A stretch of DNA of 64,000 nt from Neoarius graeffei (Eukaryota; Chordata; Actinopteri; Siluriformes; Ariidae), in the NCBI RefSeq assembly GCF_027579695.1, contig NC_083583.1, forward strand, positions 1,253,625 through 1,317,624. Direction: 5' to 3'. The translations under genes and the position numbers were made by a program. Positions 14,560 to 41,624 of this stretch are shown here, in pieces. Below the pieces are notes generated by a model that saw nothing but the letters and a program-made list of their open reading frames with translations, had not been told where the DNA came from and made no database searches. Each line of letters begins with the position of its first letter. Within the stretch, counting starts at the first letter, position 1.

Positions 14560-14577
14560 TGGTGCTGAAACCCGGGA
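14560..14577 (+). other. Primer-binding site of copy A, complementary to tRNA-Phe
   Basis: One base inside the 5' LTR stands TGGTGCTGAAACCCGGGA. It is complementary to the 3' end of vertebrate tRNA-Phe including CCA, with one position (T where C is expected) that would form a G-U pair. The same site is present in copy B. Confidence 0.75.
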
Positions 14578-14604
14578 ATCAAGCACAGGAAAAAGAACAG
14601 CCCC

Positions 14605-15990: not shown

Positions 15991-16208
15991 CAGAGCCGTC
16001 TACGTCATCTCCGTGTCAGAGTGAGGAGCTGCAGGCTCCTCCTCCTTCTATAGGGGAATCCCTTGCGGATTTCCCATTAGAGCAGTCATGAGATGAGACT
16101 CTGCGGCATGCGTTTGACCAAGTGAGAGTAATCAATGGTCAAACGCTCCAGCCAAACACCACCCCGTCCTTCTCCTACTTCTCAATCATGAAGGATAGAT
16201 GATACCGA

Positions 16209-17362: not shown

Positions 17363-18837
17363 GGCTGGAGGTTCAAAAGGGAACATTGGCATCGCGTACC
17401 TCTCCGGTCCCCTGTGGAGACCACCTCTCCCCGACCCAACTCACGGAGGTCACCCAATTGCAGACTGAATTTTTGGACGTGTTCTTGCCCCTGCCCGGCC
17501 ACACCAACCTCATAGAGCACCACATTGAGACGCCCCCGGGGGTGGTAGTGCGCAGCCGCCCTTACAGGTTACCTGAACACAAGAAAAAAGTGGTTTGGGA
17601 CAAACTCGAGGCCATGCTCGAAATGGGCATCGTCGAGGAGTCCCACAGTGACTGGAGCAGCCCGGTGGTCTTGGTACCCAAGGCCAACGGGTCGGTCTGG
17701 TTCTGTGTAGACTATAGAAAAGTCAACGCGGTGTCTAAATTCGACGCGTACCCAATGCCTCGTATTGATGAGTTGCTCGATCGACTAGGCACGGCTCACT
17801 TTTACTCGACACTGGATTTGACAAAGGGTTATTGGCAGATCCCCTTGACTCCATTATCCCGAGAAAAAATGGCCTTTTCCACACCGTTTGGCTTACACCA
17901 ATTTGTCACACTTCCTTTTGGGCTGCTTGGGGTACCCGCTACGTTCCAGCGGCTGATGAATAGGGTCCTCCGCCCCCATGCCACCTACACGGCTGTATAC
18001 TTAGATGACATCATTATCTATAGTAATGACTGGCCATGGCACCTACAATATCTGAGGGCCGTCCTTAGGTCGCTGAGACGAGTGGGTCTCACAGCCAACC
18101 CGAAGAAGTGTGCGATTGGGCAGGTGGAAGTACGGTATCTGGGCTTCCACTTGGGCAACGGGCAGGTGCGTCCCCAAATTAACAAGACAGCGGCAATTGC
18201 GGCCTGCCCGAGGTCCAAGACCAAAAAGGGGGTGAGACAGTTCCTGGGGCTGGCTGGCTACTATCGTAGGTTTATACCTAATTATTTGGACGTCACCAGC
18301 CCGCTGACTGATCTCACTAAAAAGGGGGTACCAGATCCGGTCCAGTGGATGGAGCAATGCCAGCGGGCTTTCTCTGAGGTGAAGGCTGCACTGTGCAGGC
18401 GGCCACTGTTACACTCCCCTGACTTTTCTCTCCCCTTTACGTTGCAGACGGACGCGTCGGACAGAGGGCTGGGGGCTGTTCTGTCCCAGGAGGTGGAGGG
18501 GGAGGACCGCCCCATCCTGTACATAAGCAGGAAGCTGTCAGTGCATGAGGGGTGCTACAGCACCATCGAAAAGGAGTGCCTGGCGATCAAGTGGGTGGTC
18601 CTCGCCCTCCGCTACTACCTGCTGGGACGCCCTTTCACCCTCTGTTCGGACCACACGCCCTTCCAGTGGCTCCACCACATGAAGGATGCCAACGCGCAGA
18701 TCACTCGTTGGTATCTGGCACTCCAACCCTTTAACTTCAAGGTGATCCACAGGCTGGGGGTGCAGATGGTCATGGCAGACTTCCTCTCCCGTCAAGGGGG
18801 GGGAGTCGGCTGCAGGCTGGACGCCCACCCGGCCTGA
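17323..18837 (+). CDS. Reverse transcriptase-RNase H of Gmr1-like copy A
   Basis: An uninterrupted frame of 504 residues. The RT starts near residue 85 (EEMLEMGIVEE-type region, SDWSSPVVLVPKANGSVWFC), continues with YRKVNAVSKFDAYPMPRIDE, FYSTLDLTKGYWQIPL, and the catalytic VYLDDIIIYSND. RNase H follows with LQTDASDRGLGAVLSQ, STIEKECLAIKWVV and LCSDHTPFQWLH. It ends with ADFLSRQGG, 17 bases before the 3' LTR, so no integrase follows. The frame is open, but as part of a polyprotein with upstream breaks it is unlikely to be expressed correctly; the ATG at 17323 is not necessarily a real start. FWYCVDY-type RT motif reads WFCVDY here. Confidence 0.85.
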   Translation: MALVSVVPEKAELGLEVQKGTLASRTSPVPCGDHLSPTQLTEVTQLQTEFLDVFLPLPGHTNLIEHHIETPPGVVVRSRPYRLPEHKKKVVWDKLEAMLEMGIVEESHSDWSSPVVLVPKANGSVWFCVDYRKVNAVSKFDAYPMPRIDELLDRLGTAHFYSTLDLTKGYWQIPLTPLSREKMAFSTPFGLHQFVTLPFGLLGVPATFQRLMNRVLRPHATYTAVYLDDIIIYSNDWPWHLQYLRAVLRSLRRVGLTANPKKCAIGQVEVRYLGFHLGNGQVRPQINKTAAIAACPRSKTKKGVRQFLGLAGYYRRFIPNYLDVTSPLTDLTKKGVPDPVQWMEQCQRAFSEVKAALCRRPLLHSPDFSLPFTLQTDASDRGLGAVLSQEVEGEDRPILYISRKLSVHEGCYSTIEKECLAIKWVVLALRYYLLGRPFTLCSDHTPFQWLHHMKDANAQITRWYLALQPFNFKVIHRLGVQMVMADFLSRQGGGVGCRLDAHPA

Positions 18838-18854: not shown

Positions 18855-19171
18855 TGTGGCAGTGGGGGCATGGTCAAGCGTCGGTCTGTGACCAGAGGGC
18901 GGAGTCAGGGAATTTAAGTGGCAGAATCACTGCACCTGATGTTGGTTAACATGTGTCTGTGTGTCTTCCCCAGTGACCACGCCCTATTTAAGGAGAGAGT
19001 GAGAGCAGAGGAGGGGCTCTCTCCCCAACCAGACACCTGATGTGTGTGCGTGTGCATGCATGTATGAGAGAGTGCGAAAAGACAACTGAAAAGTGTCAAA
19101 ATAAACAAGTTACGAAACTCAGTTCTGGCCTGCCGTCTTCTGTGCTCCTCCCACTCCTACAAACTGCTACA
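18855..19171 (+). repeat. 3' LTR of Gmr1-like copy A
   Basis: Begins TGTGGCAGTGGGGGC and ends CAAACTGCTACA. It is about 27 bp longer than the 5' LTR and differs from it at many positions. It abuts LINE sequence at 19172. Confidence 0.87.
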
Positions 19172-21053
19172 TACAGTCTGATGGTGTGAGGGACAAAGGA
19201 GTTTTTGAATCTGTTCATCCTGCACTTGGGAAGGAGCATTCTGTCACTGAACAGGCTCCTCTGGTTGCTGATGATGGTGTGCAGAGGGTGACTGGCATTG
19301 TCCATGATGTTCAATAGTTTGTCTATAGACCTCTTCTCTGCCACCGACACCAGAGAGTCCAGCTTCATGCCGACCACAGAGCCGTCCCGCCTGATCAGTT
19401 TGTCCAACCTGGATGTGTCCTTCTTGGATGTGCTGCCCCCCCAGCACACCATGGTGTAAAACAGGACACTGGTGACCACAGACTGATAGAACATCCACAG
19501 GAATTTCCTGCAGATGTTAAAGGATCGCAGCCTTCTAAGGAAGTATAGCCTGCTCTGTCCCTTCCTGTATAAGTGTTTGGTGTTGCAAGTCTAGTCCAGC
19601 TTGCTGTCCAGCCACAGCCTGAGGTACTTGTAGGAATCCATGGCCTCCACCTTGACTCCCTCGATCAGAACTGGTCGTGACCTTGGTCTGGACCTCCCAA
19701 AGTCAATGAACAGCTCCTTGGTCTTCGAGGTGTTGAGCTGCAGATGGTTCCTGTTGCACCACACAGCAAAGTCCCTCACCAGGCTCCTATACTCCTCCTC
19801 TCTGTCATCACTGATACACCCAATGATGGCTGTGTCATCGGCAAACTTCTCAATGTGACACAGCTCTGAGTTGTAGCAGAAGTCTGCGGTGCACAGGGCG
19901 AAGAGAAGAGGGGCCAGCACCGTGCCCTGGGGTGCTCCGGTGCTGCTAATCACAGTGTCAGACATGATGTCCTTCAGCCTGACATACTGCTGCCTGTCAG
20001 TGAGGTAGCTGGATATCCAGGTGACCAGGCAGGGGTCCACTCGCATCCTGTTCAGTTTGTCCTGAAGCAATAGGGGCTGGATGGTGTTGAAGGCACTCGA
20101 GAAGTCCAAGAAGAGGATCCTCACTGTGACATTTCCCTTATCCAGATGTAAGTGGGCTCAGTGTAGCAGGTAGAGGATGGCGTCTTCCACACCAACACCT
20201 GCCCGTTACGCAAACTGCAGACAGTCCTGGGCATGTTGTACCTGAGGTCTTTGGAGGCTGAGGAAAAGCCACTCCAATGTCTTCATCAGATGTGAAGTGA
20301 GTGCCACTGGTTGGAAGTCATTCAGCTCGCTGGGCCGATTCTTTTTGGGAACTGCAATGATACATGATGTCTTCCAGAGGGTGGGCACTCTCCCCAGCTG
20401 CAGGCTGAGGTTGAAGATGCGTTGGAGTGGTTCACCCAGTTCAGCAGCGCAGGTCTTCAGTAGTCGGGGACACACCTTGTCTGGTCCTGCTGCTTTCCTG
20501 GGGTGAAGTTTCCTCAGTTGACCTCTGACCTGGTCTGCAGTAATGCATGGAGGAGTCTGTGTTGAGGTGGGGGAGGAGGGGACTGCTGTGATGACTGGGG
20601 GTAGGTGTATTGAGGAAAGAAGGAGAGATGGCTGCAGTGAGGGAGAGGGTGGGGGGGGACATGGGGTGGTTGAACCAATTGAAGTAGTCATTCAACTCAT
20701 TCGCCCTCTCGACTGTCCCCTCAACGACTCTGGTCTTTGTATTGTGGCCTGTGATGGTTTTCACACCTTCCCAAACCTCCCTCATGCTGTTCTCCTTCAG
20801 CTTCTGCTCCACCTTTCTCCTATAGCTGTCCTTAGCTTCTCTCACGCAACGTTTTACCTCCTGCTGTGCTGCTTTCATCGCCTCCCTATCCCTGCTCCTG
20901 AAGGAGGCCTTCTTCCTGTTGAGGACAGCTTTGACTTCCTGTGTTAGCCATGGCTTGTTATTAGAGTAACACAATACAGTCTTAGCAGGGGATACCACAT
21001 CTGCAAAGAAGTTAAGGTAATCCATCAGACAGTGTCAGCCCGTCTATGTCCTC
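19172..21053 (-). mobile_element. Rex1/CR1-group LINE, reverse transcriptase half (split by a giant hAT)
   Basis: Minus-strand pieces 21025-20441, 20691-20206, 20124-19591 and 19494-19096 give, in order: a linker (KPWLTQEVKAVLNRKKASF), the RT start (RKAAGPDKVCPRLLKTCA), ILFLDFSSAFNTIQPLLL, GAPQGTVLAPLLF, the catalytic KFADDTAIIG, and a C-terminal LPKCRMNRFKNSFVP block. Frame breaks and stops are present. The upstream endonuclease half lies at 37812-38950. The junction at 21053/37812 is a transposon target site. The right edge of copy A's LTR marks this LINE's 3' end. Confidence 0.87.
21046..21053. repeat. Left target-site duplication of the giant hAT
   Basis: ATGTCCTC directly left of the terminal CAGTGTTG. 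Its partner ATATCCTC is at 37812-37819, differing at one position. Eight bases is the hAT duplication length. Confidence 0.85.
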
Positions 21054-21065
21054 CAGTGTTGTTTT

Positions 21066-21300
21066 TGGCAGCCATTTTTGATTTAGTTTTAGTCTTAGTC
21101 TTTTGAACGAAATGCTTATTAGTTTTAGTCACATTTTAGTCAATTCCATCCTTGATAGCTTTGGTCTAGTTTTAGTCGACGAAAACTAAAAGGATTTTAG
21201 TCCAGTTTTAGTCATTCATTTTAGTCAAAAAATTACTTTAAAACATTAAACTAGGCCAATACAGAAATAGGAAATTGTAATAGAGGTTGACAGGTTGTGC
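21066..21300. repeat. Left subterminal region of the giant hAT, rich in TTTTAGTC
   Basis: Within about 180 bases the octamer TTTTAGTC or a close variant (TTTTAGTT, TTTTAGTCG) recurs about ten times in the same orientation. A few copies also occur near the right end at 37740-37750. Clustered subterminal motifs are typical transposase-binding sites of hAT elements. No coding sequence is present. Confidence 0.7.
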
Positions 21301-21308
21301 ATAACATA

Positions 21309-22997
21309 CTCTCTACATAAACGCTGTCTAGTGTGCATACTCTACATAAATGCTGTCTAGTGTGTAAACTCTCTACATAAACGCTGTCTAGTGTGCATGC
21401 TCTTTACATAAAAGCTGTCTAGTGTGTATACTCTACATAAACGCTGTCTAGCGTGTAAACTCTCTACATAAACGCTGTCTAGTGTGCATGCTCTCTACAT
21501 AAACGCTGTCTAGTGTGCATGCTCTTTACATAAACGCTGTCTAGTGTGTAAACTCTCTACATAAACGCTGTCTAGTGTGCATGCTCTTTACATAAAAGCT
21601 GTCTAGTGTGTATACTCTACATAAACGCTGTCTAGCGTGTAAACTCTCTACATAAATGCTGTCTAGTGTGTATACTCTACATAAACGCTGTCTAGCGTGT
21701 AAACTCTCTACATAAACGCTGTCTAGTGTGCATGCTCTCTACATAAACGCTGTCTAGTGTGCATGCTCTTTACATAAACGCTGTCTAGTGTGTAAACTCT
21801 CTACATAAACGCTGTCTAGTGTGCATGCTCTTTACATAAAAGCTGTCTAGTGTGTATACTCTACATAAACGCTGTCTAGTGTGTATACTCTCTACATAAA
21901 TGCTGTCTAGTGTGTATACTCTACATAAACGCTGTCTAGTGTGCATGCTCTCTACATAAACGCTGTCTAGTGTGTATACTCTCTACATAAATGCTGTCTA
22001 GTGTGTATACTCTACATAAACGTTGTCTAGTGTGTATAATCTCTACATAAACGCTGTCTAGTGTGCATACTCTCTACATAAACGCTGTCTAGTGTGTATA
22101 CTCTACATAAACGCTGTCTAGTGTGCATGCTCTCTACATAAACGCTGTCTAGTGTGTATACTCTCTACATAAACATTGTCTAGTGTGTATAATCTCTACA
22201 TAAACGCTGTCTAGTGTGCATACTCTCTACACAAATGCTGTCTAGTGTGTATACTCTCTACATAAACGCTGTCTAGTGTGTAAACTCTCTACATAAACGC
22301 TGTCTAGTGTGCATACTCTACATAAATGCTGTCTAGTGTGTAAACTCTCTACATAAACGCTGTCTAGTGTGCATGCTCTTTACATAAAAGCTGTCTAGTG
22401 TGTATACTCTACATAAACGCTGTCTAGCGTGTAAACTCTCTACATAAACGCTGTCTAGTGTGCATGCTCTCTACATAAACGCTGTCTAGTGTGCATGCTC
22501 TTTACATAAACGCTGTCTAGTGTGTAAACTCTCTACATAAACGCTGTCTAGTGTGCATGCTCTTTACATAAAAGCTGTCTAGTGTGTATACTCTACATAA
22601 ACGCTGTCTAGCGTGTAAACTCTCTACATAAACGCTGTCTAGTGTGCATGCTCCCAACATAAACGCTTTCTAGTGTGTATACTCTCTACATAAATGCTGT
22701 TTAGTGTGCATGCTCTCTACATAAATGCTGTCTAGTGTGTATACTCTCTACATAAACGCTGTCTAGTGTGTAAAATCTACATAAACGCTGTCTAGTGTGC
22801 ATGCTCTCTACATAAACGCTGTCTAGTGTGCATGCTCTTTACATAAATGCTGTCTAGTGTGTAAACTCTCTACATAAACGCTGTCTAGTGAGTAAACTCT
22901 CTACATAAACGCTGTCTAGTGTGTATACTCTCTACATAAACGCTGTCTAGTGTGTAAACTCTCTAAATAAACGCTGTCTAGTTCGCATGCTCTCTAC
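21309..22997 (+). repeat. Minisatellite array, block 1
   Basis: About 55 tandem units of 29 or 31 bp. The core is TACATAAACGCTGTCTAG, followed by TGTG and a variable hexamer (GCATGC, GTATAC, GTAAAC), then CTCTC or CTC. The two lengths differ by a CT dinucleotide. Units with GTAAAC are frequent here and rare in later blocks. No open reading frame is maintained. Confidence 0.95.
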
Positions 22998-23377
22998 TAG
23001 AGGTCTGCGCGGGTCGGATTTTTCAGTCCCGCTCCTGCCCGCGCCCGCATTGTGTAGTCACGCTCCCACCCACGCCCGCAAAGAATTATGATTTTCAGTC
23101 CTGCTCCCGCCCGCACCCACAAAAAATTATGATTTTCAGTCCCGCTCCCGCCCGCACCTGCCATATTTTGTCCCGCTCCCGCCCGCAAATCCCGCATGAT
23201 GCAGACGTTCGTGTTATTTCTCAGGAAAGTTCTTGTCTTGACACAGCGTGATGGTGCCCCGCCCCCTACTTTGAGTGGATTTGAGCATAAATATCTACAG
23301 CTCACGTTCATGTTTGTTATTATTTACCTTGTTTCTGAATTCAGCATGTAGTGTCTCTAATAATAATAATAATAATT

Positions 23378-24099
23378 AGTGCTGTCAAGCGATTAAAATA
23401 TTTAATCGCGAATCACACATTTTTATCACATGAGAAACCATTGTAATTCTCTGATCAGCATAAAAAAGTGAATGGGCTTGCTTTGTACCAATGGTGTTTT
23501 TTTTTTATTGCAAAGCAGAGCTAGCAAGAGGAGTGAACTTCACTCTTCTTCCACTTCACTCAGTGAAGTGATTTACTGCTTGAGTTAGTCTACAACTCTA
23601 ATCAGAGAGACAGGTTACACAGTGACGGTAGGCTTGACATGCTTGATTATAATATACACTATCATATTAACTTTAAGTTGTTCATTGATAAATATTGCAT
23701 TGAATCTGATCTTTACTGTTTCATCTCACTTAACACATTTCGTACTTTTACACTTTTTCTGCCTGTTGATGCGTCACGCTGTCCAATCAGAGGCGGCCAA
23801 ATTTGCATATTACAGGAAGGATTTCTGGGATAGCATTGAGTTTACAGACGCTGTCTTCTTAAAACTGAATAAATATTTTAAAAGAGCCAAATGAGCCAGT
23901 CTTTTGAACAGCTCTTTTCAAAGAACGGATCAAAAAGATGCGGATCCCATCAAAGAGCCATAAATCCCATCTCTACTAGTTTCAAAAGCTTATGAAAAAC
24001 CTACATCATGTCACAGAGCGTTAATCTCGCGATAAAAAAAATTATCGCCGTTTAAATTGAGTCAAGTTAACGCGATAATAACGCGACATTTTTTACAGC
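23378..24099. mobile_element. Dispersed AT-rich repeat inserted in an AAT microsatellite
   Basis: Starts AGTGCTGTCAAGCGATTA and ends AACGCGACATTTTTTACAGC, with AAT repeats on both sides (about 23358-23376 and 24100-24136). Both ends carry TTAATCGCG- or CGCGATAA-like sequence in opposite orientation, as in non-autonomous TIR elements. Inside, about 23880-23980, lies a stretch rich in AAGAGCC and GGATC motifs, which looks like part of another MITE. The short open frames (23622-23894) have no recognisable domain. Confidence 0.55.
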
Positions 24100-24136
<37 letters not shown>

Positions 24137-24500
24137 GACAGGCGAGCATGTAATTCCATGTGGAAATTTGGTATATTTATTGTTCAGCCATACAAAATAT
24201 TAGGCTAACCCAGTTTACATTTGTTAAGCATTTCTAACTAGAATATCCTATAGAATACCCTATAAGCATAGCATATATAAATGTTATAACAAAGCACAGT
24301 CCTAGCCGACAACAACAAAAAATCGACAGTATAGGCTACTGTAGACATTATAGGGCTATGGTTGCACATTTCTAAAACTATTTGGGCTTGAGCCTCCGTG
24401 CAAGTGTTAAACTCAATATAACATAGCTGACCTTGTTTGAATATGAATAAGAAAAATGAGAAAATCAAATGCAGGTAAACGAAACAGCTAAGCCTATTGC

Positions 24501-25088
24501 TTAGGATATCGGGTTCTTTGAACAGCTATGGAGAAACAGCAAATTGTTCACTGTTGAGGGCTTCAACATACTGCGCCTTTCCTCCAGTATGCGACCACAT
24601 ATGCTGAACGCGCGCTCGGATGGTGCGCTGGAACCTGGAATGGCCAGTACATGCCGTGCCAGTTTGGCAAGTGTGGGAAAGTCATAGCAATGATTTTTCC
24701 ACCACAGCAGGATATCTTTAGATTGGTGTGATTCGGATCCAATAAGTTTCACTGTCAGATAATCATCAATCTCGGAGTTTACAGACTTCGATTCAGCACC
24801 CGTAGCACCGACATCCTCCCATTCCTCAAACTCACGAAAAGTGACCTTTTTAGGTGGAGGTGGCTCCGCGCTTTCATCAGTTTGGACATCAAACCCCAAC
24901 TCCTCAGTCATCTCTTTCACAGCTTCCGTCACGTATTGGCTTTCATTTGCATTGATCATCCAAAGATGACGCAGCTTTGGAGTAAGGAAAGTTGCTACTT
25001 TATACAGCATGTCAATTCCATTTGGGACAAAGTGACTTGGTGACAGCAGTGCGTCTAGGCGTTGCGCACACGCAGATGCGATGACAGG
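24501..25088 (-). pseudogene. hAT transposase C-terminus (dimerization domain)
   Basis: The minus-strand frame is open from 25088, upstream of the first ATG at 25010, to a stop at 24501, about 195 residues. It ends with the hAT C-terminal signature: FPTLAKLARHVLAIPGSSAP, then SERAFSICGRILEERRSML and NNLLFLHS. An acidic linker (AEPPPPKKVTFREFEEWEDV) precedes it. In active elements this region dimerises the transposase and completes the RNase H-like core. Here the upstream core and DNA-binding parts are absent: the frame is cut by the minisatellite at 25089. Confidence 0.87.
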
Positions 25089-25600
25089 TCTCTACATAAA
25101 CGCTGTCTAGTGTGCATGCTCTCTACATAAACGCTGTCTAGTGTGCATGCTCTACATAAACGCTGTCTAGTGTGCATGCTCTCTACATAAACGCTGTCTA
25201 GTGTGCATGCTCTCTACATAAACGCTGTCTAGTGTGTATGCTCTCTACATAAACGCTGTCTAGTGTGCATGCTCTCTACATAAACGCTGTCTAGTGTGCA
25301 TGCTCTCTACATAAATGCTGTCTAGTGTGCATGCTCTCTACATAAACGCTGTCTAGTGTGCATGCTCTCTACATAAACGCTGTCTAGTGTGTATACTGTA
25401 CATAAACGCTGTCTAGTGTGTATACTGTACATAAACGCTGTCTAGTGTGTATACTCTCTACATAAACACTGTCTAGTGTGCATGCTCTCTACATAAACGC
25501 TGTCTAGTGTGCATGCTCTCTACATAAACGCTGTCTAGTGTGTATACTGTACATAAACGCTGTCTAGTGTGCATGCTCTCTACATAAACGCTGTCTAGTG
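25089..25600 (+). repeat. Minisatellite array, block 2
   Basis: About 17 forward units of the same 29/31-bp repeat as block 1, mostly the GCATGC type. It starts exactly where the hAT coding sequence ends and stops at an inverted piece of that hAT at 25601. Confidence 0.93.
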
Positions 25601-25996
25601 TTGATTATCTCGTTTTTCTTATTCATATTCAAACAAGGTCAGCTATGTTATATTATTACACACTAGACAGCGTTTATGTAGAGAGCGTGCACACTAGACA
25701 GCGTTTATGTAGAGTATACACACTAGACAGCGTTTATGTAGAGTATACACACTAGACAGCGTTTATGTAGAGAGTATACACACTAGACAGCGTTTATGTA
25801 GAGAGTATACACACTAGACAGCGTTTATGTAGAGAGCATGCACACTAAACAACATTTATGTAGAGAGTATACACACTAGACAGCGTTTATGTAGGGAGCA
25901 TGCACACTAGACAGTGTTTATGTAGAGAGTATACACACTAGACAGCGTTTATGTAGAGTATACACACTAGACAGCGTTTATGTAGAGAGCATGTAG
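25601..25996 (-). repeat. Inverted block: hAT snippet plus about 11 reversed minisatellite units
   Basis: 25601-25654 is the reverse complement of 24416-24469 (shared ATTCATATTCAAACAAGG and GGTCAGCTATGTTATA), with a few changes. It is followed by units reading CTAGACAGCGTTTATGTAGA, that is, the minisatellite in the opposite orientation, to about 25996. Forward units resume at 25997. The block records an inversion or template-switch that carried transposon DNA into the array. Confidence 0.9.
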
Positions 25997-28900
25997 AGTG
26001 TGTATACTCTCTACATAAATGCTGTCTAGTGTGCATGCTGTCTACATAAACGCTGTCTAGTGTGTATACTCTACATAAACGCTGTCTAGTGTGCATGCTC
26101 TCTACATAAACGCTGTCTAGTGTGTATACTCTCTACATAAACGCTGTCTAGTGTGTATGCTCTCTACATAAACGCTGGCTAGTGTGTATACTCTACATAA
26201 ACGCTGTCTAGTGTGCATGCTCTCTACATAAACGCTGTCTAGTGTGTATGCTCTCTACATAAACGCTGGCTAGTGTGTATACTCTACATAAACGCTGTCT
26301 AGTGTGTATACTCTCTACATAAACGCTGTCTAGTGTGTATACTCTCTACATAAACGCTGGCTAGTGTGTATACTCTACATAAACGCTGTCTAGTGTGCAT
26401 GCTCTCTACATAAACGCTGTCTAGTGTGTATACTCTCTACATAAACGCTGTCTAGTGTGCATACTCTCTACATAAACGCTGTCTAGTGTGCATACTCTCT
26501 ACATAAACGCTGTCTAGTGTGCATACTCTCTACATAAACGCTGTCTAGTGTGCATGCTCTCTACATAAACGCTGTCTAGTGTGCATGCTCTCTACATAAA
26601 CGCTGTCTAGTGTGCATGCTCTCTACATAAACGCTGTCTAGTGTGCATGCTCTCTACATAAACGCTGTCTAGTGTGCATGCTCTCTACATAAACGCTGTC
26701 TAGTGTGTATACTCTCTACATAAACGCTGTCTAGTGTGCATACTCTCTACATAAACGCTGTCTAGTGTGCATGCTCTCTACATAAACGCTGTCTAGTGTG
26801 TATACTCTATATAAACGCTGTCTAGTGTGCATGCTCTCTACATAAATGCTGTCTAATGTGCATGCTCTCTACATAAACGCTGTCTAGTGTGTATGCTCTC
26901 TACATAAACGCTGTCTAGTGTGCATGCTCTCTACATAAACGCTGTCTAGTCTGCATGCTCTCTACATAAATGCTGTCTAATGTGCATGCTCTCTACATAA
27001 ACGCTGTCTAGTGTGTATGCTCTCTACATAAACGCTGTCTAGTGTGCATGCTCTCTACATAAATGCTGTCTAATGTGCATGCTCTCTACATAAACGCTGT
27101 CTAGTGTGTATACTCTCTACATAAACGCTGTCTAGTGTGTATACTCTCTACATAAACGCTGTCTAGTGTGTATACTCTACATAAACGCTGTCTAGTGTGT
27201 ATACTCTCTACATAAACGCTGTCTAGTGTGTATACTCTCGACATAAACGCGGTCTAGTGTGTATACTCTCTACATAAACGCTGTCTAGTGTGTATACTCT
27301 CTACATAAACGCTGTCTAGTGTGCACGCTCTCTACATAAACGCTGTCTAGTGTGTATACTCTCTACATAAACGCTGTCTAGTGTGCACGCTCTCTACATA
27401 AACGCTGTCTAGTGTGTATACTCTCTACATAAACGCTGTCTAGTGTGTATACTCTCTACATAAACGCTGTCTAGTGTGTATACTCTCTACATAAACGCTG
27501 TCTAGTGTGTATACTCTCTACATAAACGCTGTCTAGTGTGTATACTCTTCATAAACACTGTCTAGTGTGTATGCTCTCTACATAAACGCTGTCTAGTGTG
27601 TATACTCTCTACATAAACGCTGTCTAGTGTGCATGCTCTCTACATAAACGCTGTCTAGTGTGCATGCTCTTTACATAAACGCTGTCTAGTGTGTATACTC
27701 TCTACATAAATGCTGTCTAGTGTGTATACTCTACATAAACGCTGTCTAGTGTGCATGCTCTCTACATAAACGATGTCTAGTGTGCATGCTCTCTACATAA
27801 ACGCTGTCTAGTGTGCATGCTCTTTACATAAACATTGTCTAGTGTGTATACTCTCTACATAAATGCTGTCTAGTGTGTATACTCTCTACATAAACGCTGT
27901 CTAGTGTGTATACTCTCTACATAAATGCTGTCTAGTGTGTATACTCTCTACATAAACGCTGTCTAGTGTGCATACTCTCTACATAAACGCTGTCTAGTGT
28001 GCACGCTCTCTAAGTAAATGCTGTCTAGTGTGTATACTCTCTACATAAACGCTGTCTAGTGTGTATACTCTCTACATAAATGCTGTCTAGTGTGTATACT
28101 CTCTACATAAACGCTGTCTAGTGTGTATACTCTCTACATAAATGCTGTCTAGTGTGTATACTCTCTACATAAACGCTGTCTAGTGTGTATACTCTCTACA
28201 TAAACACTAGTGTGTATGCTCTCTACATAAACGCTGTCTAGTGTGCATGCTCTCTACATAAACGCTGTCTAGTGTGTATGCTCTCTACATAAAGGCTGTC
28301 TAGTGTGCATGCTCTTTACATAAACGCTGTCTAGTGTGTATACTCTCTACATAAACACTAGTGTGTATGCTCTCTACATAAACGCTGTCTAGTGTGCATG
28401 CTCTCTACATAAACGCTGTCTAGTGTGCATGCTCTCTACATAAACGCTGTCTAGTGTGCATGCTCTTTACATAAACGCTGTCTAGTGTGCATGCTCTCTA
28501 CATAAACGCTGTCTAGTGTGTATGCTCTCTACATAAACGCTGTCTAGTGTGCATGCTCTTTACATAAATGCTGTCTAGTGTGTATACTCTCTACATAAAC
28601 ACTAGTGTGTATGCTCTCTACATAAACGCTGTCTAGTGTGTATACTCTCTACATAAACACTAGTGTGTATGCTCTCTACATAAACGCTGTCTAGTGTGCA
28701 TGCTCTCTACATAAACGCTGTCTAGTGTGTATACTCTCTACATAAACGCTGTCTAGTGTGTATACTCTCTACATAAACACTAGTGTGTATACTCTCTCCA
28801 TAAACGCTGTCTAGTGTGTATACTCTCTACATAAACGCTGTCTAGTGTGCATGCTCTCTACATAAACGCTGTCTAGTGTGTATGCTCTCTACATAAACGC

Positions 28901-29931
28901 TGTCTAGTGTGCATGCTCTTTACATAAACGCTGTCTAGTGTGTATACTCTCTACATAAACGCTGTCTAGTGTGTATGCTCTCTACATAAACGCTGTCTAG
29001 TGTGCATGCTCTTTACATAAATGCTGTCTAGTGTGTATACTCTCTACATAAACGCTGTCTAGTGTGTATACTCTCTACATAAATGCTGTCTAGTGTGCAT
29101 GCTCTCTACATAAACGCTGTCTAGTGTGTATACTCTACATAAACGCTGTCTAGTGTGTATACTCTCTACATAAACGCTGTCTAGTGTGTATACTCTACAT
29201 AAACGCTGTCTAGTGTGCATACTCTCTACATAAACGCTGTCTAGTGTGTATACTGTCTACATAAACGCTGTCTAGTGTGTATACTCTCTACATAAACACT
29301 GTCTAGTGTGCATGCTCTCTACATAAACGCTGTCTAGTGTGTATACTCTACATAAACGCTGTCTAGTGTGTATACTGTCTACATAAACGCTGTCTAGTGT
29401 GTATACTCTCTACATAAACGCTGTCTAGTGTGTATACTGTACATAAACGCTGTCTAGTGTGTATACTCTACATAAACGCTGTCTAGTGTGTATACTCTCT
29501 ACATAAACACTGTCTAGTGTGCATGCTCTCTACATAAACGCTGTCTAGTGTGCATGCTCTCTACATAAACGCTGTCTAGTGTGTATACTCTCTACATAAA
29601 CGCTGTCTAGTGTGTATACTCTACATAAACGCTGTCTAGTGTGTATACTCTCTACATAAACGCTGTCTAGTGTGTATACTCTACATAAACGCTGTCTAGT
29701 GTGTATACTCTCTACATAAACGCTGTCTAGTGTGTATACTCTACATAAACGCTGTCTAGTGTGTATACTCTCTACATAAACGCTGTCTAGTGTGTATACT
29801 CTCTACATAAACGCTGTCTAGTGTGTATACTCTCTACATCAACGCTGTCTAGTGTGTATACTCTCTACATAAACGCTGTCTAGTTTGTATACTGTCTACA
29901 TAAACGCTGTCTAGTGTGTATACTCTCTACA
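25997..29931 (+). repeat. Minisatellite array, block 3
   Basis: About 130 forward units. Variants include ATAAATGCTG and ATAAACACTG at the unit's single CpG, a shortened unit reading AAACACTAGTGTG, and a rare unit GCACGCTCTCTAAGTAAATG at 28001 that recurs in block 4. No genes. Confidence 0.95.
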
Positions 29932-30192
29932 CAGAGGCGATTCTTGAGTCTGTTGTGGCCCCAAGCAAAAATTTCCAGGGGGCCCTTCTGACCAGTGTTC
30001 ATCACCAATATGTTATAAATAATCTGACACCAAATTTTTTTTAAATTCCAAATGTGAAAATACAATGGTAAAGTACAATAAAAACAATAAAAAACAAAAT
30101 AAATAAGCCCTCAGGCCCCAACTCTCGGGGGCCCCTGGGCCAGGGGGCCCCAAGCAGTTGCCTGCCTTGCCTGTTCACAAGCTGCGCGTCTG
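29932..30192. mobile_element. 261-bp hAT-type MITE, copy 1, inside a minisatellite unit
   Basis: Begins CAGAGGCGATTC and ends GCTGCGCGTCTG, weakly inverted hAT-like ends. The exact 8-bp repeat TCTCTACA, part of the array unit, flanks it (29924-29931 and 30193-30200). It contains GGGGCCCC-rich palindromic sequence near its right end. The short minus-strand ORF across it is chance. A same-length and apparently identical copy with the same flanks is at 35619-35879. Confidence 0.85.
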
Positions 30193-33100
30193 TCTCTACA
30201 TAAACGCTGTCTAGTGTGCATGCTCTCTACATAAACGCTGTCTAGTGTGTATACTCTACATAAACGCTGTCTAGTGTGTATACTCTCTACATAAACGCTG
30301 TCTAGTGTGCATACTCTCTACATAAATGCTGTCTAGTGTGCATGCTCTCTACATAAACGCTGTCTAGTGTGTATACTCTCTACATAAACGCTGTCTAGTG
30401 TGCATGCTCTCTACATAAACGCTGTCTAGTGTGTATACTCTCTACATAAACGCTGTCTAGTGTGCATGCTCTCTACATAAACGCTGTCTAGTGTGCATGC
30501 TCTCTACATAAACGCTGTCTAGTGTGCATGCTCTCTACATAAATGCTGTCTAGTGTGTATACTCTCTACATAAACGCTGTCTAGTGTGCATGCTCTTTAC
30601 ATAAATGCTGTCTAGTGTGTATACTCTCTACATAAACGCTGTCTAGTGTGTATACTCTACATAAACGCTGTCTAGTGTGCATGCTCTCTACATAAATGCT
30701 GTCTAGTGTGTATACTCTCTACATAAACGCTGTCTAGTGTGCATACTCTCTACATAAACGCTGTCTAGTGTGTATACTCTACATAAACGCTGTCTAGTGT
30801 GTATACTCTCTACATAAACGCTGTCTAGTGTGTATACTCTACATAAACGCTGTCTAGTGTGTATACTCTCTACATAAACGCTGTCTAGTGTGTATACTGT
30901 CTACATAAACGCTGTCTAGTGTGCATGCTCTCTACATAAACGCTGTCTAGTGTGTATACTCTCTACATAAACGCTGTCTAGTGTGCATACTCTCTACATA
31001 AACGCTGTCTAGTGTGCACGCTCTCTAAGTAAATGCTGTCTAGTGTGTATACTCTCTACATAAACGCTGTCTAGTGTGTATACTCTCTACATAAACACTA
31101 GTGTGTATGCTCTCTACATAAACGCTGTCTAGTGTGTATACTCTCTACATAAACGCTGTCTAGTGTGTATACTCTCTACATAAACGCTGTCTAGTGTGCA
31201 TGCTCTCTACATAAACGCTGTCTAGTGTGTATGCTCTCTACATAAACGCTGTCTAGTGTGCATGCTCTTTACATAAACGCTGTCTAGTGTGTATACTCTC
31301 TACATAAACGCTGTCTAGTGTGTATGCTCTCTACATAAACGCTGTCTAGTGTGCATGCTCTTTACATAAATGCTGTCTATTGTGTATACTCTCTACATAA
31401 ACGCTGTCTAGTGTGTATACTCTCTACATAAATGCTGTCTAGTGTGTATACTCTCTACATAAACGCTGTCTAGTGTGTATACTCTCTACATAAACACTAG
31501 TGTGTATACTCTCTACATAAACGCTGTCTAGTGTGTATGCTCTCTACATAAACGCTGTCTAGTGTGTATACTCTCTACATAAATGCTGTCTAGTGTGTAT
31601 ACTCTCTACATAAACGCTGTCTAGTGTGTATACTCTCTACATAAACGCTGTCTAGTGTGTATACTCTCTACATAAACACTAGTGTGCATGCTCTCTACAT
31701 AAACGCTGTCTAGTGTGTATACTCTCGACATAAACGCTGTCTAGTGTGTATACTCTCTTCATAAACACTAGTGTGTATGCTCTTTACATAAATGCTGTCT
31801 AGTGTGTATACTCTCTACATAAACGCTGTCTAGTGTGTATACTCTCTACATAAACGCTGTCTAGTGTGTATACTCTCTACATAAATGCTGTCTAGTGTGT
31901 ATACTCTCTACATAAACGCTGTCTAGTGTGTATACTCTCTACATAAACACTAGTGTGCATGCTCTCTACATAAACGCTGTCTAGTGTGTATACTCTCTAC
32001 ATAAACGCTGTCTAGTGTGTATACTCTCTACATAAACGCTGTCTAGTGTGTATACTCTACATAAACGCTGTCGTGTGTATACTCTCTACATAAACGCTGT
32101 CTAGTGTGCATGCTCTCTACATAAACGCTGTCTAGTGTGTATACTCTACATAAACGCTGTCTAGTGTGTATACTCTCTACATAAACGCTGTCTAGTGTGT
32201 ATACTCTACATAAACGCTGTCTAGTGTGTATACTGTCTACATAAACGCTGTCTAGTGTGTATAGTCTCTACATAAACGCTGTCTAGTGTGTATACTGTCT
32301 ACATAAACGCTGTCTAGTGTGTATACTCTCTACATAAACGCTGTCTAGTGTGTATACTGTCTACATAAACGCTGTCTAGTGTGTATACTCTCTACATAAA
32401 CGCTGTCTAGTGTGTATACTGTCTACATAAACGCTGTCTAGTGTGTATACTCTACATAAACGCTGTCTAGTGTGTATACTGTCTACATAAACGCTGTCTA
32501 GTGTGTATACTCTCTACATAAACACTGTCTAGTGTGCATGCTCTCTACATAAACGCTGTCTAGTGTGTTTACTCTACATAAACGCTGTCTAGTGTGTATA
32601 CTGTCTACATAAACGCTGTCTAGTGTGTATACTCTACATAAACGCTGTCTAGTGTGTATACTGTCTACATAAACGCTGTCTAGTGTGTATACTCTCTACA
32701 TAAACGCTGTCTAGTGTGTATACTGTCTACATAAACGCTGTCTAGTGTGCATGCTCTCTACATAAACGCTGTCTAGTGTGCATGCTCTCTACATAAACGC
32801 TGTCTAGTGTGCATGCTCTTTACATAAACGCTGTCTAGTGTGTATACTCTCTACATAAACGCTGTCTAGTGTGTATACTCTACATAAACGCTGTCTAGTG
32901 TGCATGCTCTCTACATAAATGCTGTCTAGTGTGTATACTCTCTACATAAACGCTGTCTAGTGTGCATGCTCTTTACATAAATGCTGTCTAGTGTGTATAC
33001 TCTCTACATAAACGCTGTCTAGTGTGTATACTCTACATAAACGCTGTCTAGTGTGCATGCTCTATACATAAATGCTGTCTAGTGTGTATACTCTCTACAT

Positions 33101-35618
33101 AAACGCTGTCTAGTGTGTATACTCTCTACATAAACGCTGTCTAGTGTGTATACTCTACATAAACGCTGTCTAGTGTGCATGCTCTCTACATAAACGCTGT
33201 CTAGTGTGTATACTCTCTACATAAACGCTGTCTAGTGTGCATACTCTCTACATAAACGCTGTCTAGTGTGCACGCTCTCTAAGTAAATGCTGTCTAGTGT
33301 GTATACTCTCTACATAAACGCTGTCTAGTGTGTATACTCTCTACATAAACACTAGTGTGTATGCTCTCTACATAAACGCTGTCTAGTGTGTATACTCTCT
33401 ACATAAACGCTGTCTAGTGTGTATACTCTCTACATAAACGCTGTCTAGTGTGCATGCTCTCTACATAAACGCTGTCTAGTGTGTATGCTCTCTACATAAA
33501 CGCTGTCTAGTGTGCATGCTCTTTACATAAACGCTGTCTAGTGTGTATACTCTCTACATAAATGCTGTCTAGTGTGTATACTCTCTACATAAACGCTGTC
33601 TAGTGTGTATACTCTCTACATAAACACTAGTGTGTATGCTCTCTACATAAACGCTGTCTAGTGTGTATACTCTCTACATAAATGCTGTCTAGTGTGTATA
33701 CTCTCTACATAAATGCTGTCTAGTGTGTATACTCTCTACATAAACGCTGTCTAGTGTGTATACTCTCTACATAAACACTAGTGTGCATGCTCTCTACATA
33801 AACGCTGTCTAGTGTGTATACTCTCTACATAAACGCTGTCTAGTGTGTATACTCTCTACATAAACGCTGTCTAGTGTGTATACTCTCTACATAAACACTA
33901 GTGTGCATGCTCTCTACATAAACGCTGTCTAGTGTGTATACTCTCTACATAAACGCTGTCTAGTGTGTATACTCTCTACATAAACACTAGTGTGTATGCT
34001 CTTTACATAAATGCTGTCTAGTGTGTATACTCTCTACATAAACGCTGTCTAGTGTGTATACTCTCTACATAAATGCTGTCTAGTGTGTATACTCTCTACA
34101 TAAACGCTGTCTAGTGTGTATACTCTCTACATAAACACTAGTGTGCATGCTCTCTACATAAACGCTGTCTAGTGTGTATACTCTCTACATAAACGCTGTC
34201 TAGTGTGTATACTCTCTACATAAACGCTGTCTAGTGTGTATACTCTACATAAACGCTGTCGTGTGTATACTCTCTACATAAACGCTGTCTAGTGTGCATG
34301 CTCTCTACATAAACGCTGTCTAGTGTGTATACTCTACATAAACGCTGTCTAGTGTGTATACTCTCTACATAAATGCTGTCTAGTGTGTATACTCTACATA
34401 AACGCTGTCTAGTGTGTATACTGTCTACATAAACGCTGTCTAGTGTGTATACTCTCTACATAAACGCTGTCTAGTGTGTATACTGTCTACATAAACGCTG
34501 TCTAGTGTGTATACTCTCTACATAAACGCTGTCTAGTGTGTATACTGTCTACATAAACGCTGTCTAGTGTGTATACTCTCTACATAAACGCTGTCTAGTG
34601 TGTATACTGTCTACATAAACGCTGTCTAGTGTGTATACTGTCTACATAAACGCTGTCTAGTGTGTATACTCTACATAAACGCTGTCTAGTGTGTATACTG
34701 TCTACATAAACGCTGTCTAGTGTGTATACTCTACATAAACACTGTCTAGTGTGCATGCTCTCTACATAAACGCTGTCTAGTGTGTTTACTCTACATAAAC
34801 GCTGTCTAGTGTGTATACTGTCTACATAAACGCTGTCTAGTGTGTATACTCTACATAAACGCTGTCTAGTGTGTATACTGTCTACATAAACGCTGTCTAG
34901 TGTGTATACTCTCTACATAAACGCTGTCTAGTGTGTATACTGTCTACATAAACGCTGTCTAGTGTGTATACTCTCTACATAAACGCTGTCTAGTGTGTAT
35001 ACTGTCTACATAAACGCTGTCTAGTGTGTATACTCTCTACATAAACGCTGTCTAGTGTGTATACTGTCTACATAAACGCTGTCTAGTGTGTATACTCTAC
35101 ATAAACGCTGTCTAGTGTGTATACTGTCTACATAAACGCTGTCTAGTGTGTATACTCTCTACATAAACGCTGTCTAGTGTGTATACTGTACATAAACGCT
35201 GTCTAGTGTGTATACTCTACATAAACGCTGTCTAGTGTGTATACTCTCTACATAAATGCTGTCTAGTGTGTATACTCTACATAAACGCTGTCTAGTGTGT
35301 ATACTCTCTACATAAACGCTGTCTAGTGTGCATGCTCTCTACATAAACGCTGTCTAGTGTGCATGCTCTCTACATAAACGCTGTCTAGTGTGTATACTCT
35401 CTACATAAACGCTGTCTAGTGTGTATACTCTACATAAACGCTGTCTAGTGTGTATACTCTCTACATAAACGCTGTCTAGTGTGTATACTCTACATAAACG
35501 CTGTCTAGTGTGTATACTCTCTACATAAACGCTGTCTAGTGTGTATACTCTCTACATAAACGCTGTCTAGTTTGTATACTGTCTACATAATCGCTGTCTA
35601 GTGTGTATACTCTCTACA
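30193..35618 (+). repeat. Minisatellite array, block 4
   Basis: About 180 forward units between the two MITE copies, the longest uninterrupted block. It contains internal higher-order duplication: the rare AAGTAAATG unit occurs at 31016 and 33270, and a TGTCGTGTG deletion unit at about 32070 and 34258, giving a period near 2.2 kb. Alternating 29- and 31-bp units with GTATACTGTC dominate around 32200-32700 and 34400-35200. Confidence 0.95.
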
Positions 35619-35879
35619 CAGAGGCGATTCTTGAGTCTGTTGTGGCCCCAAGCAAAAATTTCCAGGGGGCCCTTCTGACCAGTGTTCATCACCAATATGT
35701 TATAAATAATCTGACACCAAATTTTTTTTAAATTCCAAATGTGAAAATACAATGGTAAAGTACAATAAAAACAATAAAAAACAAAATAAATAAGCCCTCA
35801 GGCCCCAACTCTCGGGGGCCCCTGGGCCAGGGGGCCCCAAGCAGTTGCCTGCCTTGCCTGTTCACAAGCTGCGCGTCTG
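35619..35879. mobile_element. 261-bp hAT-type MITE, copy 2 (copied with the array)
   Basis: Same length, ends and TCTCTACA flanks (35611-35618 and 35880-35887) as the copy at 29932, exactly 5687 bp away. The neighbouring units on both sides also correspond in order. It is therefore a duplicate made by array duplication, not a second transposition. Confidence 0.9.
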
Positions 35880-36740
35880 TCTCTACATAAACGCTGTCTA
35901 GTGTGCATGCTCTCTACATAAACGCTGTCTAGTGTGTATACTCTACATAAACGCTGTCTAGTGTGTATACTCTCTACATAAACGCTGTCTAGTGTGCATA
36001 CTCTCTACATAAATGCTGTCTAGTGTGCATGCTCTCTACATCAACGCTGTCTAGTGTGTATACTCTCTACATAAACGCTGTCTAGTGTGCATGCTCTCTA
36101 CATAAACGCTGTCTAGTGTGTATACTCTCTACATAAACGCTGTCTAGTGTGCATGCTCTCTACATAAACGCTGTCTAGTGTGCATGCTCTCTACATAAAC
36201 GCTGTCTAGTGTGCATGCTCTTTACATAAACGCTGTCTAGTGTGTATACTCTCTACATAAACGCTGTCTAGTGTGTATACTCTACATAAACGCTGTCTAG
36301 TGTGCATGCTCTCTACATAAATGCTGTCTAGTGTGTATGCTCTCTACATAAACGCTGTCTAGTGTGTATACTCTCTACATAAACGCTGTCTAGTGTGTAT
36401 ACTCTACATAAACGCTGTCTAGTGTGCATGCTCTCTACATCAACGCTGTCTAGTGTGTATACTCTACATAAACGCTGTCTAGGTGTGCATGCTCTCTACA
36501 TAAACGCTGTCTAGTGTGTATACTCTCTACATAATCGCTGTCTAGTGTGCATACTCTACATAAACGCTGTCTATTGTGCATGCTCTCTACATAAATGCTG
36601 TCTAGTGTGTATACTCTCTACAGAAACGCTGTCTAGTGTGTATACTCTCTACATAAACGCTGTCTAGTGTGTATACTCTCTCCATAAACACTGTCTAGTG
36701 TGTATACTCTCTACATAAAAGCTGTCTAGTGTTCATGCTC
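35880..36740 (+). repeat. Minisatellite array, block 5 (right end)
   Basis: About 28 forward units. The first several repeat the order seen just after the first MITE copy (from 30193), with occasional changes such as ACATCAACG. Divergence rises toward the right edge near 36740, where unique transposon sequence resumes. Confidence 0.94.
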
Positions 36741-37247
36741 CATTGTTCACAGACTCGTGTTTCTGCCTCCGTTTAACATGTCACAATGCACTGATAAAGC
36801 ACAAACATGTCATGATGAACACACAACTAGAAGATGACCACGCTGTCCATTAATGTAAATATGATGGCTAAACATGCTGCTAACGTTAGAGTAGCCAGGT
36901 GTGCTGCTGCTCATTTAGACATATTAAAGCCCAGCAACAGGTCTGAAAAGCTACAGTTCCCCCCGTATGTTTCACAGTAACTCAAATATGGGTCAATATA
37001 TGACAAAGCATTCAGTTGCTGTCCCACCAATAACCCCTGCAGGACAAGTTTTACTCATGACATGGTAATTGAAGTTAAGTTAGCTTAACCAAGCCAACTT
37101 TAGCATGAAGCTAGTGGTCCCATTCATTTTTGCCAGGTCACGGTGTTTTGGAAAATTTCATAGGAAATTCATCACAGACTGATTGTTGAGTGACATTAAC
37201 CAAAGCTAGGAAACGTATACACAATCTGTTAAGGACTTCTTGTCACG
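36741..37247. other. Non-repetitive inner flank of the giant hAT, no gene seen
   Basis: About 500 bp between the array and the BED-finger frame. It has stops in all frames at short intervals and no recognisable domain. It could be an intron or untranslated part of the original transposase gene. Confidence 0.5.
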
Positions 37248-37541
37248 TTAATTTACTGTCGCAGAAATAGCAACATGGTGAGCCTTTAGATGCCTCTTGA
37301 GGTTGGTTGTATTTTTGCCACATAGTTTATAGCCACAGCGTGTACCTCTGTCTCCCACTACAAGGCATTCTGTTTTATTTTCTGCTGGATTATGTGTAAA
37401 GTATGTCCATAAATCATCACGTTTTTTCCGCCCACCAAGGCCTTGTGCTGGCATTGCTGCTGCCATGGTCCATGAACTGTGTGTGGCTGCCCCGGTGTGC
37501 ACTGTGCCCGGACATGCCTGGTGGTGGGCATGACCAAACAA
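37248..37541 (-). pseudogene. BED-type zinc finger, N-terminal part of a hAT transposase
   Basis: The minus-strand frame contains GGRKKRDDLWTYFTHNPAEN, then CGYKLCGKNTTNLKRHLKAH. The aromatic W..YF start, paired cysteines and the final histidine pair are a BED finger, the DNA-binding module at the N-terminus of hAT transposases. The frame ends soon after the finger (stop at 37248) and no RNase H-like core follows. It lies 270 bp inside the right terminus of the giant hAT and reads inward, the expected place for a transposase start. Which ATG was used is unclear. Confidence 0.8.
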
Positions 37542-37811
37542 GGACAGGATGCAGGTGCATTGCTGATATTTTCAGCAATTGGCAGACTGATTGCACGCAC
37601 CACTGGAGGAAACGCCATGCATTTTGATCGTCCTATAGCCAACCCACTAACATTTTCGTCTCGTCTCGTCAACGAAAACAACAGATATGTCTCGTCATAT
37701 TTTCGTGATCAAAGAGTTATGTTTAGCTCGTCACTGTCTCGTTTTAGTCATAAAAAAAGGTGCATTAACAAAATCATTTCGTCATCGTCATCATTAACGA
37801 AAACAACACTG

Positions 37812-38950
37812 ATATCCTCACAGTGTGGGCTAAGCAGCACATCCCAGTCCGTGATATCATAGCAGTCCCTGAGGGCATCTTCCATTTCAGGGGACCACCC
37901 CCTGATGGAGCTAGTTGTTGCAGGCTGCCTTTGAACCAGGGGAGTGTACTTCAGCTGTAGATGAACCAGGTTGTGGTCAGACTTCCCTAGTGGGGGGAGG
38001 GAGGGGTGTGGCTCTGTATGCATCCCTCACATTAGCATACAGCAAGTCAATTGTCCTGTTGTTCCTTGTTGGACAGTCCACAGCCTGGTAAAAAGCAGCC
38101 AAAGTAGAGTCCAAAGTAGCATGATTAAAGTCCCCAGAAATGATGATAAATGCCTCAGGGTGCTGTGTCTGCAGCCTTGCTGTGACAGAGTGAATCCTCT
38201 CACATGCAGCAGCTGCGTCTGCCCTCAGAGGGATGTAAACACAGATGGTGATCATGTGACTGAACTCCCTCGGCAGATAATATGGCCGCAGGCTAATGGC
38301 TAGCAGCTCCAAGTCCGGGCAACATCAAACTGTCTTTAAGGAGATATGTCCTGAGTTACACCAGCGGTTGTTAACATAAATGATGAGTCCCCCACCTTTG
38401 TTTTTCCCACATGTGTTAGTGTCTCTGTTGGCTCTCACAGCAGTGAATCCCCACAGGTCCACATTAGCATCCGGTACAAGGTGTGTTAGCCATGTCTCCG
38501 TAAAGATAAATAAGTAAATCCGCTGGTTGTTCAGAGCGGAAAGCTCGTCAGCTTTATTCGGCAGCGAGTTCACATTCCCCATGATAACGGAGGGAATGGA
38601 TGGTTTGCAGTGCCGCCGGTTGTCCGCTAGCCTAGCCTTTAGCTTAGCTCCAGCTTTGCAGCCCCTGGGTTTCCTCCTCAGCTCGGCTGGGATAGGGTGT
38701 CGTATCCCGGCTCATCCCATTGTTTTCAGGGCCAGCAACTCCTCTCTTGAATAAGTGAGAAAACTGGCTCCTGGTTGCGTGTTAAAGTTAAAAATATCCA
38801 TGTGATATAAGTAAAACACACTATGTCTTTGTAAGAAGAGCAGAAAAGTAAAAAATGGTGGAAAAAAGAGGTTTAAAGAGCTAAAAACTACAGAGCTACT
38901 GGAAAGGCAGCCATCTCACACAGCGCCCATACTAGATGGGCATATCATGG
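37812..38950 (-). mobile_element. Rex1/CR1-group LINE, 5' half (endonuclease), beyond the giant hAT
   Basis: Minus-strand pieces 38582-38325, 38312-37977 and 38023-37812 read as an APE-type endonuclease in order: NSLPNKADELSALNNQ, FTETWLTHLVPDANV, GGGLIIYVNN, AFIIISGDFNHATLDS, and GKSDHNLVHLQLKY. The remaining 5' part up to about 38950 is leader sequence. The frame ends at the transposon target site and is taken up again on the other side at 21053. The small frameshifts show it was already, or became, non-functional. Confidence 0.85.
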
Positions 38951-40815: not shown

Positions 40816-41624
40816 TCAGATTTCCTTCTTCTGGTTCTTGTAGCGCATCCTGAGCCCTGGAGCTTCGGCTACTCCTGATTGGTTGGAATTAATCAAAGCT
40901 TCAGGCTTGTATGTGAGAAGGAAGTCAATTAGATCAATTTCCTGTTCTTCAGGATCACATGTGAATTGAGTGCTGAAGCCCAGACGCTCAGCCTCCATCA
41001 GCGGGTCATCCTCCTCACTCTCCATCTCCATCTGCTTCAGATCATTATCTTCATTCTGTTTATCTTCCTGCTCATCATCATCATCATCCTCTTCAGGAGC
41101 GTCTTCCTCCACCTCCTCATCTTCATAACTGCAGCCAACAGCGCCTCCTTGTGGATAATGGAAGACGTGCCTGTGATGACTGAATGTGATCTGTTTTCTC
41201 CTGCTGGGTGTTTCTCCTTCATTCTGATTTCCTGGTGAATTTGGCATCTCCTCTTCATCAGCAGAACTTTGAGCCAGACCAGGTTGGTCTTCACCAACTT
41301 CCTCCTCTTCCTCTTCATCCTGGTTATAATCTTCTTCATCAGCATCACCTTCATTATCATCTGTTTCTTCTTCTTTTTCGTATTGTGCCTGTTTGAGTTC
41401 ATCATCATCCTTCATCCCTTGAGGACCATCTTCATCTTCACTGGACTCATCTTTCACTTCTTCTGTCCTTTCTTCATTCTTTTCATCCTCTTCTTCTCTC
41501 TCCATTCTTTCAGCCACTTCCTCAGGTGTAGGAACATCTCCATATGGCTCCTCAAAGATGACACTTGGATATCGATGCCTGTAAAGCGGCACCTCATACT
41601 GAGGAAAGGTCTCCTCTGGATAAC
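40816..41624 (-). CDS. ric3: ric3 last coding exon (acidic C-terminus)
   Basis: Starts after the acceptor CTTTGTCCTCCTCAG and completes the glycine codon of SADWEG. It begins GYPEETFPQYEVPLYRHRYP, as in RIC3 of other vertebrates, then EEVAERMEREEEDEK. About 150 residues of glutamate/aspartate-rich low-complexity sequence follow (for example QDEEEEEEVGEDQPG), then QEIDLIDFLLTYKPEALI and a basic end (MRYKNQKKEI). The tail is longer than in mammalian RIC3. Open frames in the other strand and frames here are shadows of this composition. Confidence 0.88.

Follow-up and report, generated by a model that had tools for sequence, protein, structure and literature searches.

A 16.8-kb hAT-type element in Neoarius graeffei with a large internal tandem array

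The outer element and the LINE around it

We analysed a 64,000-bp stretch of DNA from Neoarius graeffei (the window), in which a hAT-type element, here called the outer element, spans positions 21054-37811 (16,758 bp). The sequence CAGTGTTGTTTT starts at 21054 and its reverse complement ends at 37811, giving inverted ends that match at 12 of 12 bp. The 8-mers that flank the element, ATGTCCTC on the left (21046-21053) and ATATCCTC on the right (37812-37819), agree at 7 of 8 bases and form the two copies of the target duplication. We scanned the window for 12-bp inverted ends starting with CA, 0.3-20 kb apart and flanked by a repeat of at least 7/8 bases. The pair at 21054/37811 was the sole one to pass; 100 random sequences of 64 kb each, drawn from a first-order Markov model, contained none.

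The left end (21054-21305, plus strand) consists of the 12-bp inverted repeat and, within these 252 bp, seven copies of the subterminal repeat TTTTAGTC, all on a single strand. The right end (36741-37811, minus strand; 1,071 bp) comprises a non-repetitive part, a BED exon, subterminal TCGTC repeats and the 12-bp inverted repeat. It holds one copy of TTTTAGTC, which does not occur on either strand of the 47,242 bp of flanks scanned outside the element; TCGTC is present 8 times in the right 1,071 bp versus 36 times in the same 47,242 bp, both strands counted. The element thus shows several traits of the hAT superfamily, namely short terminal inverted repeats (12/12 bp), an 8-bp target-site duplication (7/8 bases), subterminal short repeats (TTTTAGTC) and the N-terminal BED zinc finger of ZBED-type members. 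Catalytic and C-terminal dimerisation domains of its own are lacking, as is usual for a non-autonomous member, and a tandem array lies within its ends, as in satellite-carrying non-autonomous DNA transposons.

The outer element interrupts a LINE on the minus strand. The reverse-transcriptase side of the LINE forms the left flank (19096-21034, minus strand; RVT_1 with E 2.8e-17 at 19591-20157), and its upstream side, placed by frame continuity and in the same orientation as the left part, forms the right flank (37820-38711, minus strand). When the flanks were joined with one target copy kept, one LINE frame was open through the junction and reached a stop about ten codons later, past which the LINE resumes in a different frame. 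With this stop and frame shift near the junction, the LINE must have been degraded already when the element inserted, or have become so afterwards. Pfam searches with the three right-flank ORFs (37748-38026, 37977-38324 and 38325-38711) gave no match, and their place in the LINE therefore rests on frame continuity. The left-flank ORF 20206-20691 likewise had no Pfam match, and ORF 20441-21034 had just weak matches to unrelated families, under their cut-offs. An earlier note on this DNA had claimed the 12-bp matching ends, the 8-bp flanking repeat with one mismatch and the LINE that reads across the gap in the same orientation, and all three were recovered in our analysis. The ends, the target duplication and the interrupted LINE together give good support to the view that the array lies within a single inserted hAT.

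Two other features were noted in the window. Frames of an LTR-type retrotransposon at 14569-18837 encode, in this order, a SCAN domain (E 3.3e-20), an integrase zinc-binding domain (E 2.3e-21) and a weak match to an integrase core, followed by reverse transcriptase and RNase H; we take this position of the integrase before the reverse transcriptase to recall Gmr1-like Gypsy elements. On the minus strand, an ORF of 326 aa at 40816-41796 has a high content of acidic residues and no Pfam match; it is possibly a host gene exon.

The BED exon and the transposase

The right end of the outer element contains a BED-finger exon of a ZBED-type hAT transposase (37254-37466, minus strand), next to which a possible splice donor, GTAAAT, was seen by eye. 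The match to Pfam zf-BED (E 0.001) reached 19.5 bits, slightly below the cut-off of 20.6. The exon is 57-88% identical to five aligned proteins, all from fish, and we consider the BED finger proposed in the earlier note to be real. Four of these proteins are ZBED-like (P0010-P0013, 595-652 aa; 57-67% identity). The fifth, P0009, is a Neoarius graeffei gene model whose start is 88% identical to the exon. P0009 is named kynureninase isoform X2 and also holds a retrotransposon RNase H; its BED match may reflect an exon capture or a gene-prediction error. Because P0011 and P0013 (595 and 652 aa) carry zf-BED and Dimer_Tnp_hAT together, the BED exon can be tied to hAT transposases. A precomputed domain list also gives P0012 a hAT dimerisation domain and lists none for P0010.

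The ZBED-type hAT proteins P0010-P0013 extend for several hundred residues, whereas in the outer element the BED exon stands alone. With their sequence from residue 70 onwards, P0011-P0013 gave no credible match to the two tips of the element (best E 0.21); the single strong tip match of P0010 is to its own BED finger, owing to its longer N-terminus. Compared with the whole window, the whole BED-relative proteins matched the BED exon and, weakly, a foreign hAT fragment described below, and nothing else. A hAT dimerisation domain was not found in the outer element's own sequence. Judged from this arrangement, the array appears to occupy the place of an intron and of the catalytic part, and our guess is that it began in the intron after the BED exon. 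Lacking a catalytic domain, the outer element could move only with transposase supplied by another copy. A search with the BED protein against the viral_contigs set returned 10 stretches that fit a pattern, none of which was confirmed.

Array units, guest elements and block copying

Array units were located with the anchor CTGTCTAGTG, allowing at most 2 substitutions. Six blocks hold 401 anchors, and another 16 units are hidden in 58-bp doublets, each of which hides one 27-bp unit, giving about 417 units in all. Most units are 31 and 29 bp long, and some have 27 bp. Added up, the block lengths come to 12,775 bp, in which 7 bp are included twice; the array covers about 12.77 kb, 76% of the outer element's 16,758 bp. 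The earlier note had described a 29/31-bp repeat of about 12.7 kb and 400 units. Its sizes hold; the 27-bp units have to be added, and the array is not continuous, being split by a 2,091-bp foreign hAT fragment, by a 54-bp filler with an inverted stretch and by two copies of a 261-bp insert. From left to right, the blocks are A (21306-22997, plus strand; 55 anchors), whose units lie further from the consensus than those of the central block E; B (25089-25600, plus; 17 anchors); C (25655-25989, minus, inverted; 11 anchors); D (25990-29931, plus; 123 anchors and 5 hidden units); E (30193-35618, plus; 167 anchors and 11 hidden units), which is nearest the consensus and contains blocks duplicated about 2.2 kb apart; and F (35880-36740, plus; 28 anchors).

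Tandem arrays whose units are almost the same pose difficulties for assembly, and the two hAT ends lie 16.8 kb apart, so an array from elsewhere might have been joined between them by an assembly error. However, the matching target duplications and the continuing LINE pair the ends with each other, though they do not fix the placement of the array between them. Variation among the units (66 distinct sequences among 395 anchor-to-anchor units) also helps assembly, though the unit count could still be wrong. We regard such an error as very improbable.

Distances among units were computed over 379 of the 395 anchor-to-anchor units, with the 16 doublets left out. The mean weighted distance to the consensus was 2.07 in A, 2.12 in B, 1.65 in C, 1.43 in D, 1.11 in E and 1.61 in F, and the large central blocks are closer to the consensus than the array edges. 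Units nearer the consensus in E than in the outer blocks A and F are expected if exchange took place mainly in mid-array. Neighbouring units differed by 2.21 on average versus 2.24 for all pairs (1.95-2.25 over the 22 lags listed); because neighbours are hardly more alike than random pairs, local unit-by-unit slippage has left little trace. The 27-bp variant lacks 4 bp relative to the main unit and is present at 16 places, grouped in three clusters, between 28199 and 34145. Its exact motif is found 16 times on the plus strand of the window, always within blocks D and E, and the variant is a marker for block copying.

Blocks A and B are separated by a foreign hAT fragment (22998-25088, minus strand) with one end that carries subterminal repeats, by inspection, and a C-terminal transposase part. 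This part (24501-25091) contains Dimer_Tnp_hAT (E 2.7e-21) and is 91% identical to residues 432-624 of P0001, its closest match, a protein with a dimerisation domain and a Hermes-type DNA-binding domain; two further matches, P0002 and P0003, come from fish, and insects and a liverwort are among the sources of weaker protein matches. No N-terminal transposase part of the fragment was found. A search for its second end (14-mer, at most 3 substitutions) gave two matches in the window, neither of which lies within the outer element. A short element was seen by eye inside the fragment, starting near 23378 (AGTGCTGTCAAGCG) and lying between two (AAT)n runs. We considered 24501-25091 as the outer element's own C-terminal transposase part and rejected it as belonging to another family. 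At E 1, P0001 had no match to the BED exon of the outer element; among the relatives of that exon, P0012 and P0013 matched 24501-25091 with 24% and 30% identity and P0009-P0011 had no match at E 1. The earlier view that only the tips and the BED-finger frame look like a transposon is thus correct for the outer element and overlooked the C-terminal part of a second hAT inside it.

The 54-bp filler (25601-25654, minus strand) is 96% identical to the reverse complement of 24415-24468, within the foreign fragment, and is directly followed by the 11 inverted units of block C. A search for the source of block C gave about 94-95% identity at many places. The filler and the inverted block are probably the scar of a template switch or of break repair. 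This inverted patch, which suggests that break repair acted here, is also consistent with a later and independent arrival of the array, in which outside repeat DNA entered an old hAT copy and replaced its middle by repair or as reintegrated circular repeat DNA. The unit's lack of relation to the surviving hAT sequence also speaks for such an arrival: its similarity score was reached by 148 of 200 shuffles for the left tip and by 94 of 200 for the right, and we rejected a derivation of the unit from the surviving tips, as the similarity is not above that of shuffles. A later arrival is nevertheless quite unlikely in our estimate, as the window contains no further array and no extra sequence was seen by eye at the outer array borders, the latter being a weak argument.

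The 261-bp insert is present at 29932-30192 and again at 35619-35879, and the two copies are identical (0/261 differences). The first copy has TCTCTACA on both sides. The insert begins with CAGAGGCG and finishes with CGCGTCTG; past the first bases its inverted ends match poorly (12/25). By inspection, the 8-bp repeat and the end letters make the insert look hAT-like.

We sought ungapped matches within 25089-36740 and listed the best 40. A 796-bp pair at 29801/35488 has 7 mismatches and includes the 261-bp insert in both copies; a 653-bp pair at 31799/33987, 2,188 bp apart, and a 471-bp pair at 30900/33154 have 5 mismatches each. The longest among the matches listed (928 bp at 26435/26805) has 58 mismatches, which is the background level. 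Array blocks were therefore still being copied after another element had invaded the array. The 99% identity around the insert pair fades beyond about 0.9 kb, where gapped windows are about 96-97% identical, near the level of other array stretches. This limit implies either that the copied block measured about 0.8-0.9 kb and was placed 5.7 kb away, or that a longer copy was afterwards overwritten. Had a long block been duplicated in tandem, the match should extend far on both sides, and its early fading speaks against growth in place by such a step. An assembly error could likewise produce near-identical blocks. A partial order of events follows, in which the array was present, other elements entered it and array blocks were then copied together with a guest. 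The one-ended foreign hAT, the inverted patch beside the 54-bp copy and the insert present twice within a copy of about 0.8 kb are later events that the earlier note had missed.

Origin of the array and comparison with known systems

We lean towards the reading that a non-autonomous hAT of the ZBED-transposase family inserted into the LINE and that its array grew mostly in place by block exchange, which we consider somewhat more probable than all other readings together. The outer element would have kept both ends and the BED exon and lost the rest of its transposase, in whose place the array now sits. It may have landed with few array units or none; the array would then have reached about 417 units in place through unequal exchange or template switching of multi-unit blocks, and other hATs may have used it as a landing site. 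Growth inside an inserted element, one of the two routes offered in the earlier note, is favoured by the block duplications, including the one that carried a later insert along. However, neighbouring units are barely more alike than random pairs and the unit is unlike the surviving hAT sequence, both of which speak against growth in place. Much of the array could also predate the landing.

The array might instead be a trait of the hAT family. Copies of the family would then transpose together with tens to hundreds of internal units and spread the satellite in this way, a route that the earlier note had also raised. The array does lie wholly in one clean insertion, between the BED exon and the left tip, as a family repeat would. 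However, neither a second copy of the outer element nor an array outside it is present in the 64-kb window, and an element already 16.8 kb in length at insertion would be a long one for the superfamily. A weak test, in which the translated array was compared with a protein database, gave 5087 candidates and none at E 0.001. Among viral and prokaryote contigs, the unit and the left tip had no matches in viral_contigs and the unit had none in genome_contigs, a result of little weight given the origin of these contigs. We regard a family trait as possible but rather unlikely. A broader version, in which a hAT family has a repeat-prone site after the BED exon, so that its copies routinely carry arrays, move and seed satellites while the arrays serve as hAT landing sites, is speculative and in our judgement unlikely.

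The Xenopus MITEs Xmix/Xstir and miDNA4 were reportedly first described by Hikosaka and Kawahara in 2004 and by Scalvenzi and Pollet in 2014. In the excerpts of a review that covers them, these are likewise DNA transposons with an amplifiable tandem repeat, and they measure about 400 bp, whereas the present element is 16.8 kb long and has a BED exon left (PMC9659126). Section 2.1 of that review, as excerpted, names both MITE-borne and Helentron-borne satellites; transposons with internal tandem repeats are thus already known (PMC9659126). A family trait gains support from the non-autonomous Cg_HINE Helentrons of the oyster Crassostrea gigas, which, in the portion of the source available, likewise carry satellite-like central tandem repeats between transposon flanks (PMC7492417). 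Cg_HINE comprises 11 elements of the Helentron superfamily with a genome-wide spread, according to the same portion, whereas the present case is a single hAT copy that is flanked by an 8-bp target duplication and contains about 417 short units (PMC7492417). The Tetris foldback transposon of Drosophila virilis, in the extracts available, is also a DNA transposon that is a source of satellite units; these derive from its inverted repeats, whereas the unit described here is unlike the ends (PMC4079207; table in PMC9659126).

The general idea that transposons spread satellites is likewise in print, as extracts of two reviews attest (PMC9659126, PMC12628747). The unusual parts of the present locus are the size of the array and its hAT carrier; among the matches listed from the open-licence literature searched, in the excerpts these provide, no hAT with an internal array this large is named. 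Because a partial order of events can be read from it, the locus is a natural tracer for array growth. If sister copies carry the array too, cut-and-paste hATs would join the transposons known to spread satellites.
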